A stretch of 44,830 nt of DNA from an uncultured Thermoguttaceae bacterium (lineage in GTDB: Bacteria > Planctomycetota > Planctomycetia > Pirellulales > Thermoguttaceae). Position numbers and translations under genes: made by a program. A model generated the notes under the pieces. It worked only from the letters and a program-made list of their open reading frames with translations, made no database searches and was not told the DNA's origin. How positions within the stretch are numbered: position 1 is the stretch's first letter; the number at the start of each line of letters is the position of its first letter. Shown piece after piece: positions 13,990 through 20,652 of this stretch. Where the stretch lies: contig CALFBP010000038.1 in the NCBI GenBank assembly GCA_937951625.1, forward strand, positions 1 through 44,830, read 5' to 3'.

Positions 13990-15201
13990 CTAACTTTGCA
14001 TGCCCGTTTTTGACAAGACCTGCCGGTAAACTTCAGCCACGCCCGCGGCCATCGCCCGGTCAGAAAACCGCTCCGCATGGCGGCGCAGGGCATTTTCGCG
14101 GATCGCCGCCCAATCGACTTCGCCGCGGAAAACTCGGCTCAGACAAGCTGCCAAGGCGGAAGCGTCGTTCGGCTCCGTGAGCAGCCCATCGACGCCGTCC
14201 CGAATGACCTCAGGAATCCCCTCCACGCGGGTACCAACCACCGGCACTCCAGCCGCCATGGCCTCCAGCAGAACCATCGGCAAACCTTCACCAAAACGGC
14301 TGGGGAGCACGAACACATCCATTTGGGCCAATTCCGCAGGAACGTCGCTGGTAAAACCGGTCCAATCGATCAAGTCGGCAAGCCCAAGGTCTTGGGCCAG
14401 GGCGAACATCTGGTCTTTGTAGTCGCGGGTCTCGAAATCGCCCACCGCCCGCAGACGCACCTGTTCGCCCTGACCCAAGAGAATCGCCATCGCCTGGAGC
14501 AGGACTTCCAAACCTTTGCGGGGCCGGAACAGCGCGACCGTGCCCAGCGTCCAGCGACTGTCGCCCGGCATCCGCGGCGGCCGAGGCCGTTGCTGCGGTA
14601 CGCCATTGGGCACAACGAACACGCGATCTGCCATGGACCGCCACCGACGAACCCGGTCGCCGAGACTTTGCGACACGGCGATCACGGCCGCGGCGCTCCG
14701 TAAACTGGCGTATTCCACCACGGCATTGAAACTGTTCTGCCAACGATGGGTCGAATCGCGCGACGCCGGGCTGTGGACGTGATAAACCCAAGGCACTCCC
14801 GCCAAGCGGGCCGCTAATGCCGTCAGCATGGCGGTCCGAGGCGTGTGAGCGTGCAGCAGAGCGAACGAGCCGGCCCGCGCCAGCCGGGCGATTGCCCCGG
14901 CCGGTCGGAGGTCCCAGCGAGATTTCATCGGCGTCGCATGGACCGCTACCGCTTGCGATCGCAGCATCCGCGGAAAACGGTCCGGTTTGACGCAAGCGAA
15001 CGCGGCCGAAAAACCGAATTCAACCAGTCGTGCTGCCAGCAAGTCCTGCACACGTTCCGCCCCGGAGTAGTGCTCGCCATTGATTACATGCAGCGCGCCT
15101 CGCGTTCGGCAGCTAGGGTGCGGTGGAATCGCTTGCTCGGGCACACCGCAGGAAAACTGAACCGGAAACGGAAATATCGTCTCGGAACAAGCTGGGTCCA
15201 T
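13990..15201 (-). CDS. GT4-family glycosyltransferase
   Basis: 403 residues, GT-B fold. The N-terminal Rossmann half begins with ALHVINGEHYSGAER (about 36-50), as in WbaZ/PimA-like enzymes; the preceding 35 residues are extra and the start may lie further in. The C-terminal half has VFVVPNGV (about 195-201), LFRPRKGLEVLLQA and the EX7E motif from E305 to E313 in GEGLPMVLLEAM, followed by AAGVPVVGTRVEGIPEVI. GT4 enzymes retain configuration and transfer sugars from nucleotide donors to polysaccharide or lipid acceptors. No other polysaccharide genes flank it, so the acceptor is unknown. No membrane helix, so it acts at the cytoplasmic face. Confidence 0.93.
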   Translation of the reverse strand: MDPACSETIFPFPVQFSCGVPEQAIPPHPSCRTRGALHVINGEHYSGAERVQDLLAARLVEFGFSAAFACVKPDRFPRMLRSQAVAVHATPMKSRWDLRPAGAIARLARAGSFALLHAHTPRTAMLTALAARLAGVPWVYHVHSPASRDSTHRWQNSFNAVVEYASLRSAAAVIAVSQSLGDRVRRWRSMADRVFVVPNGVPQQRPRPPRMPGDSRWTLGTVALFRPRKGLEVLLQAMAILLGQGEQVRLRAVGDFETRDYKDQMFALAQDLGLADLIDWTGFTSDVPAELAQMDVFVLPSRFGEGLPMVLLEAMAAGVPVVGTRVEGIPEVIRDGVDGLLTEPNDASALAACLSRVFRGEVDWAAIRENALRRHAERFSDRAMAAGVAEVYRQVLSKTGMQS

Positions 15202-17405: not shown

Positions 17406-17654
17406 ATGAAGTGTGAAGAACTGCTGGCCGCATTGAATCAGTACGTCGACGGCGAGATCGAGCCGGGCATTTGCCAGGCCTTTGAGCAGCATTTGGCGGG
17501 CTGCAATCCCTGCCAAGTCGTGGTAGACAACATCCGCCGCACGATCACCCTCTATAAGGAGGGTGAGTTATATGAAATGCCTAAAGAGTTTCATGAACAA
17601 CTGCACCGGCAGTTACGCGAGAAGTGGCGGGCGAAGTTTGGGGTGGTCAAATAA
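17406..17654 (+). CDS. Small zinc-finger (ZAS/zf-HC2) protein
   Basis: 82 residues, soluble. The Hx3Cx2C zinc site of anti-sigma factors is present (H29, C33, C36 in EQHLAGCNPCQ), with C3 as the likely fourth ligand. The C-terminal half is a charged helix (PKEFHEQLHRQLREKW). ZAS proteins normally bind an ECF sigma factor encoded next door. None is visible here; the protein instead heads a unit with membrane proteins and a cytochrome. It may act as a redox- or zinc-sensitive regulator of that unit, which is inference. 18 nt separate it from the next small gene. Confidence 0.8.
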   Translation: MKCEELLAALNQYVDGEIEPGICQAFEQHLAGCNPCQVVVDNIRRTITLYKEGELYEMPKEFHEQLHRQLREKWRAKFGVVK

Positions 17655-17672
17655 AACCAAGTCGAGGGGGTT

Positions 17673-17819
17673 ATGAACGAATTTTTGGTTCTCGTGGTGT
17701 TTTTGGCGGCATGGATTGTCCTGAATCGGTGGATTTTGCCTTGGATGGGGGTGCCTACCTGCATGGGTGGCGCCTGCGCAACAAAACCCCGATTCCCGGA
17801 GCAAGGAGAGAACAAGTGA
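17673..17819 (+). CDS. 48-residue membrane peptide with CxxxxC motif
   Basis: A very small gene with ATG at 17673 and a strong GAGGGGG 2 nt upstream. The peptide has one membrane helix (about residues 3-22, EFLVLVVFLAAWIVLNRW), then ILPWMGVPTCMGGAC with two cysteines four residues apart (C30, C35), and a short polar tail. Its stop codon overlaps the GTG start of the next gene (GTGA junction), which supports translation as part of the operon. The cysteine pair could bind a metal or form a disulfide. I do not recognise a family. Confidence 0.7.
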   Translation: MNEFLVLVVFLAAWIVLNRWILPWMGVPTCMGGACATKPRFPEQGENK

Positions 17820-18073
17820 GCGTCGAACAGGGTTTGCGTCTGATTGCTGGGACCATGGTACTGTTGAGCGTCGCGTTGGCGGCGCTGGTCAGTCCTTGGT
17901 GGCTCTTGCTTACGGGGTTTGTCGGAATAAACTTGCTACAGTCGGGCCTGAGCAATTGGTGTCCGATGGTGTGGCTACTGGAAAAGATCGGTTTGGCCCG
18001 ATGCGTGCCAGCGAACGCCCCAACCCAAGAGCGTGAATCACCATGCACTATCCCTGGTGGTACGTCCCCGTAA
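17816..18073 (+). CDS. DUF2892 (YgaP-like) membrane protein
   Basis: 85 residues from a GTG at 17816, overlapping the previous stop by 4 nt with AAGGAG 7 nt upstream. It shows the DUF2892 pattern: GLRLIAGTMVLLSVALA, WWLLLTGFVGINLLQSGLSNWCP, then LLEKIGL, i.e. two membrane helices. This domain is the membrane part of the rhodanese YgaP and often occurs near sulfur or respiratory genes. The 3' end overlaps the cytochrome gene by 31 nt, so all five genes 17406-20652 are likely co-transcribed. Role in the complex unknown. Confidence 0.8.
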   Translation: MSVEQGLRLIAGTMVLLSVALAALVSPWWLLLTGFVGINLLQSGLSNWCPMVWLLEKIGLARCVPANAPTQERESPCTIPGGTSP

Positions 18074-19440
18074 TCACCGCGCCGATGCTCATCGCCGCGG
18101 TATCCATTGTCCACGTATTGGTCTCGCATTACGCCGTAGGGGGAGGGCTGTTTCTGGCGGTCGAAACCGCTCATGCGTACCGTACCAAGGATCGCGAATA
18201 TCTGGCCTACCTGAAAGGCCACACGAAGTTCTTTGTGTGGTTGACCGTGGTGTTTGGCGCCATCACGGGCGTGGGCATCTGGTGGACGATCGGCCTGGCA
18301 TCGCCTCTGGCCACCGAGGTGCTGATTCGGACGTTCGTCTTCGGCTGGGCCACGGAATATGTGTTTTTCGTGCTGGAGATCACCGCGGCGTTCATCTTTC
18401 TGTATTATTGGGGTCGGCTGCCAGAGAAGACACACGTAGCCGTGGGTTGGATTTACGCTGTCGCGGCGTGGATCAGCCTGGTTTTGATTACGGGCATCAC
18501 GTCGTTCATGCTCCATCCCGGCGCTTGGCTCGACCCCGCCACGCGGAGCTTCTGGAGCGGGTTTTTCAATCCGCAGTTTTTGCCGCAGACCGTGGCGCGG
18601 ACGGGTGGGGCGCTTCTACTGAGTTCTCTTTACGTGTATCTCCATGCGTCGATTGCGCTCAAGGAACAACGTTTGCGGGATTTGATCGCCGCGCGATCGG
18701 CGCGGCCGGCGCTTTTGGGGGCGCTTCTGATCCTGGCAGGCGGCGCTGGCTGGTACAGTTTCATGCCGGAATCTGCAAAGGCCGCGCTGGCCGCCGCGGC
18801 TGTGCTTAACGTGCTTGCCGCCCTGATTTTCGTGTTGACCGGCGTGGTGTTCGTGCTCCTATACCTCGGACCGTATCGCAATCCGGGTTGGCTGTCGCCG
18901 GGTTTCGCGGGGGCATTGGTGCTGTTCGGGGTGGCGGCTTTCAGCACCGGCGAATTCATCCGGGAAGCGGTCCGCAAGCCGTATGTCATTTACAATGTGG
19001 TCTTCGGCAACCAGATTCTGCCCAATGAGGTTGCCGAGCTTCGTTCACGCGGTTACCTGGAAGGCGCCCGTCCCGAGGGTCGGTCTTGGACGAATGCTTA
19101 CATCGCCCGACATTTCCCGCAAGTCATGGATCCCGCGAATCCAACGAGGATCGACGAGAAAAAATTTCTGGATTTGCCGCGAAGCGAGCAGATCAAGATC
19201 GGCGAGGTGCTCTTCCAATATCATTGTAATGATTGCCACGCGGTGCATTGGGGCTATTCTGCGGTGGCGATGATGTTGTACGGTCGCACCGAGGACATGC
19301 ACTTGGACATGATCGAAAATCTGGACCGTGCCCCGTTTTTCATGCCGCCTTGGGCGGGAACCCGGGAAGAAGCCAAGGTGCTCGCCGCCTACCTTGCAAG
19401 CATCTCTCCGCCGCGGCCTGGTGGGATGGTGCCGCAATAG
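18043..19440 (+). CDS. Cytochrome bd-superfamily subunit I with C-terminal cytochrome c domain
   Basis: 465 residues. About eight membrane helices (residues 10-310) align with CydA by eye: H24 (VHVLVSHYAVGGGLFLAVET) matches the high-spin haem ligand; GAITG, FVLEIT (E112) and YYWGRL match CydA segments; VRKPY (310-314) matches the GRQPW region. The long quinol-binding Q-loop is absent. The His that ligates haem b558 in E. coli appears to be Gln182 (PQTVA). The C-terminus (about 380-455) is a class I cytochrome c: CNDCH (395-399) and distal Met434 in FFMPPW. This matches described bd-like oxygen reductase families that carry cytochrome c and lack the quinol site. Likely electron source: a c-type cytochrome rather than quinol (inference). 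Confidence 0.82.
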   Translation: MHYPWWYVPVITAPMLIAAVSIVHVLVSHYAVGGGLFLAVETAHAYRTKDREYLAYLKGHTKFFVWLTVVFGAITGVGIWWTIGLASPLATEVLIRTFVFGWATEYVFFVLEITAAFIFLYYWGRLPEKTHVAVGWIYAVAAWISLVLITGITSFMLHPGAWLDPATRSFWSGFFNPQFLPQTVARTGGALLLSSLYVYLHASIALKEQRLRDLIAARSARPALLGALLILAGGAGWYSFMPESAKAALAAAAVLNVLAALIFVLTGVVFVLLYLGPYRNPGWLSPGFAGALVLFGVAAFSTGEFIREAVRKPYVIYNVVFGNQILPNEVAELRSRGYLEGARPEGRSWTNAYIARHFPQVMDPANPTRIDEKKFLDLPRSEQIKIGEVLFQYHCNDCHAVHWGYSAVAMMLYGRTEDMHLDMIENLDRAPFFMPPWAGTREEAKVLAAYLASISPPRPGGMVPQ

Positions 19441-19494
19441 CCGCGCGAAGCAGACGTTAATTTTCGCCGAACGAGAGCCTCGGAAGAGCGATCC

Positions 19495-20652
19495 ATGCCG
19501 CCACTCGATGCCACCCAATTACCCGCCCTGCCCGCCCCCTTCTGGTTCATCCAGTTTTTCAAGGTGCTCGGCTTCTTGCTCCACATGGTGCCGATGAACC
19601 TATGGTATGTGGGCGTGCCGTTGGCGGTTACCCTCTACGTGTTCGGCGGCGAGCGTGCGCGGCGATGGAGCGAACGGCTCATGGTTCAAATGCCGATCAT
19701 CGTGGCGGCAGGCATCAATCTGGGAATTGTCCCGCTGCTGTTTCTTCAGCTCGCCTACGCCAAGGCCTTTTATCCAGCCACGATCTTGATGGCCTGGTTC
19801 TGGCTGGCCGTGATCGGGATGTTGATTCCCGCCTACTATGGGGTCTATATCTATGTGTCGGGCATGAGAGACGGTGCGGGCTCGATGACGGTATGGCGCC
19901 GAGCGGCGGGTTGGTGCTCGGCAGTGATGTTTCTGGTGATCGGGTTCATCTTCGCCAACGCCATGAGCCTGACCACGAATGCCGCAGCCTGGCCGGATCT
20001 GCTCGACCGCCACAGCGTGGCAGGGGCAGCCACGGGCACGGCCTTGAACGTGGCCGATCCCTCGCTTTGGCCACGATGGTTGCTCATGCTGGGCCTGGCC
20101 TTGTTGACCACCGCTGCCTGGACCGTGTTAGACGCGGTCTGGCTTGCCGGAAAGGAAGGGGGCGCGTACCAGAGGTGGGCGCAGAGTTGGGCCCTGCGCC
20201 TGGCCCTTGCTGGCGCGGTTTGGTCGACCGTGACCGGGGCGTGGTACTTGTTCGGGACCTGGCGACCTACGGTCTTCAAGGAGATGTTTGCTTTCCCCGC
20301 CGTGATCCTGACCGTGCTCACGGCCGTGTCGTGTTGGGGTCCAGGAGCACTGCTTTGGGCCACACGGCGAAAGGCCCTGAACTGGACCCTTGCAGGGAGC
20401 GTGGTCGGGCTTCAGGCCGGGGTTTTGGCCCTCAATGCCATCAGCCGCCAAATCGTGCAGAACATCGAGCTGCGCGACGTGTTTCAACCGAGCGTTGCGG
20501 CCCAACCAACCGCGCCGGATTGGGGGCCCATGGCCCTGTTCTTGATCGTGTTCCTGGCCGGCGTGGGCGTCCTGATTTGGCTTTTCGCGCAATTGGCGAA
20601 GGCCGGACCAGAACCGAGTCTCGATGGGCCGGCCGAGCCTCCGGCCGCGTAG
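19495..20652 (+). CDS. Nine-helix membrane partner of the bd-like cytochrome (subunit II-like)
   Basis: 385 residues, ATG at 19495 with GGAAGAG upstream, 54 nt after the cytochrome gene. About nine membrane helices are seen: residues about 18-48, 65-95, 98-128, 140-164, 182-210, 222-245, 258-283, 290-315 and 330-358. TM1 carries LLHMVPMNLW with H30, recalling the haem-ligand histidine of subunit I, and INLGIVPLLFLQLAYAK is a strongly conserved-looking segment. It has no CxxCH. Position and topology suggest the second subunit of the oxidase-like complex, possibly derived by duplication from a bd-type ancestor. It lacks clear identity to classical CydB, so the name is inferred from context. Confidence 0.7.
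   Translation: MPPLDATQLPALPAPFWFIQFFKVLGFLLHMVPMNLWYVGVPLAVTLYVFGGERARRWSERLMVQMPIIVAAGINLGIVPLLFLQLAYAKAFYPATILMAWFWLAVIGMLIPAYYGVYIYVSGMRDGAGSMTVWRRAAGWCSAVMFLVIGFIFANAMSLTTNAAAWPDLLDRHSVAGAATGTALNVADPSLWPRWLLMLGLALLTTAAWTVLDAVWLAGKEGGAYQRWAQSWALRLALAGAVWSTVTGAWYLFGTWRPTVFKEMFAFPAVILTVLTAVSCWGPGALLWATRRKALNWTLAGSVVGLQAGVLALNAISRQIVQNIELRDVFQPSVAAQPTAPDWGPMALFLIVFLAGVGVLIWLFAQLAKAGPEPSLDGPAEPPAA

Follow-up and report, generated by a model that had tools for sequence, protein, structure and literature searches.

Do five closely packed genes on one strand encode a single five-subunit complex, or a smaller respiratory enzyme beside a separate set of small proteins? The question is raised by positions 17406–20652 of contig CALFBP010000038.1 (assembly GCA_937951625.1), whose 44,830 nucleotides are called the window here. 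The host is an uncultured member of the Thermoguttaceae, a planctomycete related to the heat-loving Thermogutta. In the order given by a first-pass annotation of the same letters, five open reading frames on the + strand encode a ZAS zinc-finger protein, a 48-residue peptide (p48), a DUF2892 protein, a CydA-like subunit fused to cytochrome c, and a nine-helix partner. The unit was found where that annotation had placed it, and the only boundary to shift was the end of the DUF2892 frame, which runs from a GTG start at 17816 to a stop at 18073. Based upon sequence, predicted fold, residue conservation, site loss, and gene distribution, we consider it likely that the locus combines a two-subunit, cytochrome c-fed oxygen reductase of the bd superfamily with a separate module of small genes.

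The large subunit and its cytochrome c domain

The product of the gene that begins at 18043 is, by its sequence and predicted fold, a bd-superfamily subunit I. It matches PF01654 at 2.7e-19, above the family cut-off, and 75 of the 87 large-subunit sequences in our alignment match at E ≤ 0.001 (alignment A7; the 87 were picked for length and spread from 113, window included). The Cytochrome_CBB3 match of the window protein is fainter (3.7e-4, below cut-off), and 84 of the 87 sequences match that family at E ≤ 0.001. The AlphaFold model (pLDDT 94.6, pTM 0.91) contains eight membrane helices, counted by eye, followed by a C-terminal cytochrome c domain; residues 11–325 of the model superimpose on residues 6–462 of E. 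coli bd-II CydA (7ose_A) with a Z score of 33.6 and an rmsd of 2.5 over 312 residues. All 20 Foldseek matches at E ≤ 0.001 were bd chains, and the membrane subunits of alternative complex III and polysulfide reductase showed weaker fold likeness to both subunits of the pair (Z 14–19). The CydA-type relationship claimed in the first-pass annotation is thus significant by profile as well as by structure. Helix 9 of canonical CydA is missing from the large subunit. With eight helices and no helix 9, the C-terminus would lie on the same side as the N-terminus, which in canonical CydA is the outer side of the membrane, and this is where haem c would attach.

Multiple features of the alignment and the model support cytochrome c as electron donor for this bd-superfamily enzyme, a reading that we regard as well supported. 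First, H24, E105, E112, R186, E304, R307, E308, R311, and P313 are invariant in 87 of 87 sequences, and K312 is kept in 86. H24 stands opposite the haem histidine of L260, a canonical CydA encoded in the same bacterial family, and opposite residue 21 of 5doq_A; E105 and E112 pair with both helix-3 glutamates of canonical CydA, a single gap lying between the two positions; and E308 and R311 align with the Glu and Arg of the canonical E-V-G-R-Q-P segment of L260. The functional roles of the conserved CydA residues come from the E. coli enzyme. Second, the sites for haem b558 and quinol are lost. The position of the b558 His ligand is A185 in the window, next to the invariant R186, and is His in only one of the 87 sequences (L047); the position of the Met ligand is L255, and 11 of the 87 sequences have Met there. 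In the alignment with canonical CydA the Q-loop is absent, its place being taken by residues 236–256, a segment of 21 residues in the window and at the median and of 30 at most. The Q-loop and the b558 His/Met ligands, which mark the canonical quinol-oxidizing bd family (qOR), are thus both missing from the 18043 product. Finally, both cysteines and the histidine of the CxxCH motif, as well as M434, are invariant. The N-terminal haem His, the RKPY and CNDCH motifs, and the deleted Q-loop had all been noted in the first-pass annotation, and the alignment agrees on each.

In the mechanism that we propose, a periplasmic donor, either a soluble cytochrome c or one bound to complex III, would reduce the fused haem c. 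The electron would then pass directly, with no haem b558 on its path, to a putative two-haem oxygen site formed around H24, E105/E112, and E308/R311. The reduction of oxygen, the predicted substrate, to water would consume cytoplasmic protons, and because the protons would be taken from that side, charge would be separated across the membrane. The partner would act as a structural half, and the ZAS, p48, and DUF2892 proteins may constitute a thiol- or sulfur-flavored module that is perhaps co-transcribed with the oxidase.

Some relatives of the large subunit vary at the cytochrome c end. Four more distant planctomycete homologs (L030, L031, L032, and L034) carry two CxxCH motifs and probably a second haem c. 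In several members of a Thermoguttaceae clade that includes many metagenome-assembled genomes (MAGs) from animal guts (L102, L103, L105–L112), the subunit is lengthened to ~560–810 residues by an insertion that precedes the cytochrome c domain; the large-subunit genes of this clade have no adjoining partner gene, which lies on a different contig in each of the ten genomes searched.

Features of the five-gene unit, with coordinates in the window
Feature	Position	Strand	Basis
ZAS / RsrA-like zinc-finger protein, 82 aa (C3, H29, C33, C36)	17406..17654	+	Pfam zf-HC2 5e-10
p48, 48-aa peptide	17673..17819	+	no family; profile finds relatives in family genomes
DUF2892 / YgaP-like_TM protein, 85 aa, motif NWCP	17816..18073	+	PF11127 1.6e-11
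CydA-like subunit with C-terminal cytochrome c	18043..19440	+	PF01654 2.7e-19
Codon of H24, counterpart of the haem His conserved in CydA	18112..18114	+	alignment
E105 and E112, counterparts of both conserved glutamates in CydA helix 3	18355..18378	+	alignment
A185-R186; A185 opposite the b558 His ligand of canonical CydA	18595..18600	+	alignment
E308-A-V-R311-K312-P313, equivalent of canonical E-V-G-R-Q-P	18964..18981	+	alignment
CNDCH haem c motif	19225..19239	+	C, C, H invariant in 87/87
Met434 codon, probable sixth haem c ligand	19342-19344	+	M in 87/87
Nine-helix partner subunit, probably a CydA-type paralog (CydA')	19495..20652	+	model and HHalign

The partner subunit

We read the partner as a probable paralog of CydA, one that decayed in the clade of the window. 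Each subunit was modeled as a single chain, and the model of the 19495 product (pLDDT 94.9) shows nine long helices, counted by eye, as the first-pass annotation had predicted. The match of this protein to PF02322, the CydB family, is marginal (0.005; 16.7 bits, where the cut-off is 35.6 bits). Among 70 partners picked for length and spread from 86 (alignment A8), a PF02322 search gave one hit at E ≤ 0.01, the window's own and below cut-off. By contrast, HHalign related the partner to the family of cytochrome c-fused large subunits with a probability of 97.6 and an E value of 4e-12 over 289 columns, as against probabilities of 10 for canonical CydA and 16 for canonical CydB; the two canonical alignments were small (5 and 6 rows). 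When the partner model was compared with bd structures using VIA-align, the CydA chain was the best match in each of ten entries (Z 24–26).

The residues of the partner fit the same history. H30 stands opposite H24 of the large subunit and is kept in 68 of 70 partners, the remaining two being gapped. The position equivalent to E308 is Gln in 45 and Glu in 10 of the 70, and the position equivalent to R311 is Gln in 45 and Arg in 22; both are Gln in the window. Glu and Arg occur together, with the His, in ten distant planctomycete partners (L036–L039, L041–L043, L046, L049, and L050), and in that clade, judging by these residues, both subunits might hold haem.

A partner gene lies within the fetched stretch at 86 of the 105 loci with at least 1.5 kb of downstream sequence. 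We also considered a lone CydA without partner for ten genomes of the family, and this was ruled out: all 14 genomes searched contain a partner, adjacent to the large subunit in four and on another contig in these ten. In one Planctomycetaceae MAG (L168:6001-8583), the large subunit and the partner are fused in a protein of 860 residues, followed by DUF2892, HlyD-type, and AcrB-type genes. Use of this fusion as a template for the complex was dropped, as the partner rows showed only 12–18% identity to it (alignment A6) and were taken to be misplaced on the CydA half.

Distribution of the oxidase and of the small genes

In a sample biased towards the window's own order and family, the large subunit was found in 27 of the 294 phylum genomes and in 72 of the 246 order genomes, with 41 of 50 from the window's family (the window's genome counted). 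Relatives at 54–66% identity occur in MAGs of Acidobacteriota, Bipolaricaulota, Armatimonadota, Chloroflexota, Bacteroidota, Zixibacteria, and other groups; misbinning aside, this spread across phyla suggests horizontal transfer. Among 61 genomes of the family, 41 encode this subunit only, seven canonical CydA only, one both, and 12 neither, and the two are nearly mutually exclusive (p=7e-4, uncorrected for phylogeny). No haem-copper oxidase was detected in 25 of the 42 genomes with the large subunit. The 42 are 41 plus G423, which was overlooked by PF01654; some of the 61 were judged by that profile alone, and a few more carriers are possible. Upstream of the oxidase in four Thermogutta and Acidobacteriota MAGs (L085, L124, L125, and L190) are genes of pyruvate:ferredoxin oxidoreductase type and DHO_dh type, as called by Pfam in L124 and by clustering in the other three. 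Pyruvate:ferredoxin oxidoreductase-type enzymes are typically oxygen-sensitive, and here one would be encoded near an oxygen reductase.

Each of the three small genes has a distinct character. The ZAS protein matches Pfam zf-HC2 at 5e-10 and the NCBIfam RsrA model TIGR03988 at 1.2e-8, with 34.9 bits under a cut-off of 62.5; C3, H29, C33, and C36 are invariant in eight of eight aligned sequences, and RsrA binds zinc through just such a Cys/His pattern. No sigma factor gene was recognized by eye among the upstream open reading frames of the window, which had no profile scan; one does lie just upstream of a ZAS relative in L246. In p48, a single probable membrane helix is followed by PTCMGGAC. 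Searches of Pfam and NCBIfam with p48 gave no match, and a profile built for it finds relatives in 23 of the 61 family genomes at E ≤ 0.01, 21 of them with E values of at most 8e-14; because of these 21, we take p48 to be a real conserved gene. The DUF2892 protein matches PF11127 at 1.6e-11 and no other family, and no rhodanese domain was found in it by Pfam, both results referring to the first 76 of its 85 residues.

Packing within the window is tight: the DUF2892 gene overlaps p48 by 4 nt and the cydA-like gene by 31 nt, and 54 bp separate the cydA-like gene from the partner gene. Such packing is not general. The complete five-gene set also occurs in L029 (genome G167, contig C1), with gaps of ~85, 135, and 260 bp between the small genes and cydA, and in L076 the small genes are scattered across 2.2 kb. 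Among the 101 large-subunit loci for which 2 kb or more of upstream sequence was available, one or more of the small genes lie upstream in the same orientation at ten, eight of which have all three; leaving out L252 and L253, which were located via p48, the counts are eight of 99 loci and six with all three. All ten loci belong to the window's family. An eleventh locus with a small-gene match, L044, was left out because the match is to a rhodanese-YgaP fusion (L044:4226-4834), ~3 kb upstream of a distant oxidase homolog. Our full set of 123 loci includes two double entries (L121/L251, the same protein, and L096/L113, pieces of one gene), and neither pair falls within the 101.

The small genes also occur apart from the oxidase. 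The ZAS profile finds matches at E ≤ 1e-8 in 23 of 246 genomes of the order, and of the 21 order genomes with a strong match, eight have the gene beside the oxidase, seven have the oxidase on another contig, and six have no oxidase match. Members of the trio lie on contigs other than that of the oxidase in G383, G407, G434, G470, G478, and G524, and G506 contains all three small genes and no oxidase match. The occurrence of p48 is unrelated to the oxidase (15 of 42 oxidase-bearing genomes and six of 19 that lack the oxidase; p=1) and is associated with haem-copper oxidases (14 of 25 genomes with and seven of 36 without; p=0.006); these tallies use 21 of the 23 genomes with p48, two with weak matches only being left out. 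No trio gene was found in the fetched stretches, some of them short upstream, of the 54–66% identity homologs from other phyla, apart from a reverse-oriented ZAS gene in L119. On a tree of the large subunit, the trio label needs six changes, compared with a shuffled mean of 6.1, and 303 of 500 shuffles needed as few. Neither clustering nor a single origin of the trio can therefore be claimed. The tree was built by a quick method from 96 of 116 rows (20 dropped for size), and the long branches L033, L035, and L047 are unsure.

The gene order ZAS-p48-(DUF2892)-CydA-partner-HlyD-AcrB is found in L075, L076, L079, and L084, and in L241 and L250 the trio or its members stand beside HlyD- and AcrB-type (RND-pump) genes, identified by similarity to Pfam-scanned proteins of L079 and L168. 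The window and L083 have the trio and the oxidase without the pump; in L078 and G383 the oxidase goes with the pump and the trio lies elsewhere; and L241 and L250 have the trio and the pump without this oxidase. Because all three combinations exist, the blocks are modular. In L243 and L244, ZAS relatives adjoin genes for a rhodanese-YgaP fusion and for a metallo-beta-lactamase/rhodanese protein, and L244 has TauE as well; other ZAS relatives lie beside the sigma factor gene and TauE in L246, and beside an NrfH-like cytochrome gene in L238 (G470); an ArsR gene and a thioredoxin-like gene adjoin the trio or its members in L255. At L238:4463-8578, the ZAS relative and the NrfH-like gene are followed by an unscanned gene of 492 residues, and the gene preceding the ZAS relative resembles, by eye, a glycosyltransferase-like gene at 13990–15201 of the window.

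The claim of dedicated small subunits in the first-pass annotation is therefore not supported, and we rejected it as the best reading on the gene distribution across loci and genomes. The context survey that it had proposed gave a divided answer: the small genes do adjoin some homologs, and they are not regular companions of the oxidase. ZAS, p48, and DUF2892 instead appear to form a separate, portable module that is co-located with the oxidase in some Thermoguttaceae, and the three are unlikely to be stoichiometric subunits. The unit is a warning that tight gene overlap does not prove membership in a shared complex.

Alternative explanations and known systems

One alternative, in keeping with the first-pass annotation, is that in Thermoguttaceae the three small proteins do belong to the complex as accessory subunits, or help to assemble it, in the manner of CydX, CydS, or CydH of canonical bd oxidases. 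The eight loci with the whole trio upstream in the same direction, the tight overlaps in the window, and the size of p48, which resembles that of CydX, would fit this idea. It is very unlikely in our judgment, given that p48 follows haem-copper oxidases and not this enzyme, that trio members lie on other contigs in six genomes and the whole trio without an oxidase match in a seventh, and that homologs in other phyla lack the trio in the stretches fetched, the reverse ZAS gene aside. A different alternative concerns the substrate: with electrons from cytochrome c, the complex could reduce something other than O2, for example nitric oxide. Its visible parts are a two-haem core and a donor domain only, a ZAS relative stands beside an NrfH-like gene in G470, and the available text of a paper on Thermogutta terrifontis reconstructs nitrate and nitrite reduction (PMC5673643). 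The identity of the canonical oxygen-site residues in all 87 sequences speaks for oxygen, as does the near-exclusion of the canonical quinol bd enzyme, which would be expected of a replacement, and we rate reduction of another substrate as decidedly improbable.

An alternative that we consider improbable, with somewhat more in its favor, makes the unit a sulfide-response island: once sulfide had blocked the haem-copper oxidase, a sulfide-insensitive bd-type oxidase would be expressed along with a zinc-thiol switch and a membrane protein of YgaP type. The rhodanese and TauE genes near ZAS relatives in L243, L244, and L246 (the last with a sigma factor) are consistent with such a role, as is the association of p48 with haem-copper oxidases. 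In the portions of the E. coli literature consulted, sulfide relieves the repression of the ygaVP operon and a ygaV mutant shows increased cydAB reads (PMC9774250), and E. coli bd oxidase is insensitive to H2S (PMC8657789). However, the DUF2892 profile found a rhodanese-YgaP gene in the 3 kb upstream of the oxidase at just one locus, L044, with no systematic search for other sulfur genes; no regulator was recognized; and p48 does not track the oxidase. A bolder version would have a sulfide-tolerant bd-type cytochrome c oxidase of two CydA paralogs, with a partner cofactor at H30, wired to a mobile thiol-sensing module and serving hot-spring planctomycetes as a respiratory branch whenever the haem-copper oxidase is put out of action by sulfide or low O2; we offer this as speculation with a small chance of being correct.

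We therefore return to a cytochrome c-fed oxygen reductase of two subunits beside a separate small-gene module, against which several points must be counted. The conserved residues may leave NO as a possible substrate, and haem d is not distinguishable from haem b by sequence. For the partner, the Foldseek ranking intermixes CydA and CydB chains, and the paralog assignment leans partly on the small canonical alignments. The presence of a haem-copper oxidase is unrelated to that of the large subunit (17 of 42 genomes with it and eight of 19 without; p=1), and the genome to which the window belongs gave one haem-copper oxidase match. The eight complete cases of trio and oxidase, all in one bacterial family, may reflect a lineage-specific subunit role, and most genomes are drafts, in which adjacency may be hidden.

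Among known systems, canonical CydAB (6rx4, 5doq, 7ose) shares with the window complex the fold of helices 1–8, the haem His, the two helix-3 glutamates, and the E-x-x-R-x-P motif. The window complex differs in lacking the Q-loop, the b558 ligands, and helix 9, in carrying cytochrome c, and in having a partner with no CydB match above cut-off. The large subunit and partner probably belong to OR-C, a family reportedly named by Murali, Gennis, and Hemp in 2021 and comprising bd-superfamily enzymes with no quinol site and another electron donor; the pair was filed there by this definition and not by the profiles of the family. The fused haem c, the eight helices, and the CydA-like partner are features of the window complex, to which OR-C is likened by description only. 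In the passages available, OR-C and OR-N are named as bd-superfamily families (PMC10839748, PMC13189123). Like the window complex, they stand outside the quinol-binding qOR family with cytochrome c as the likely donor, which is stated for OR-N, described as putatively cytochrome c-oxidizing and uncharacterized (PMC10839748). No activity study of OR-C was apparent among the literature titles surveyed, and the non-quinol bd families seem to be known mostly from sequence.

In the text available to us, the paper on T. terrifontis lists an aa3 oxidase, no quinol oxidase of bd, bo3, or ba3 type, and no typical cytochrome c gene, and it names a two-haem cytochrome c (PMC5673643); a branch like the one described here is not mentioned there. 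A culturable thermophile makes the question of the electron donor testable. For the small proteins, E. coli YgaP has the same DUF2892 membrane domain and adds a rhodanese domain that the window protein lacks, and the RsrA anti-sigma factor has the same zinc-finger Cys/His pattern, from which the window ZAS protein departs in scoring below the RsrA cut-off and in having no sigma gene recognized by eye in its unscanned upstream region. A further parallel would be archaeal CydAA', which is reportedly a quinol oxidase with two CydA-type paralogs (Murali 2021). If the partner is indeed such a paralog, two CydA-type proteins replace CydA and CydB in both systems, and the window complex would differ from the archaeal enzyme in having lost the quinol site and gained a fused haem c.

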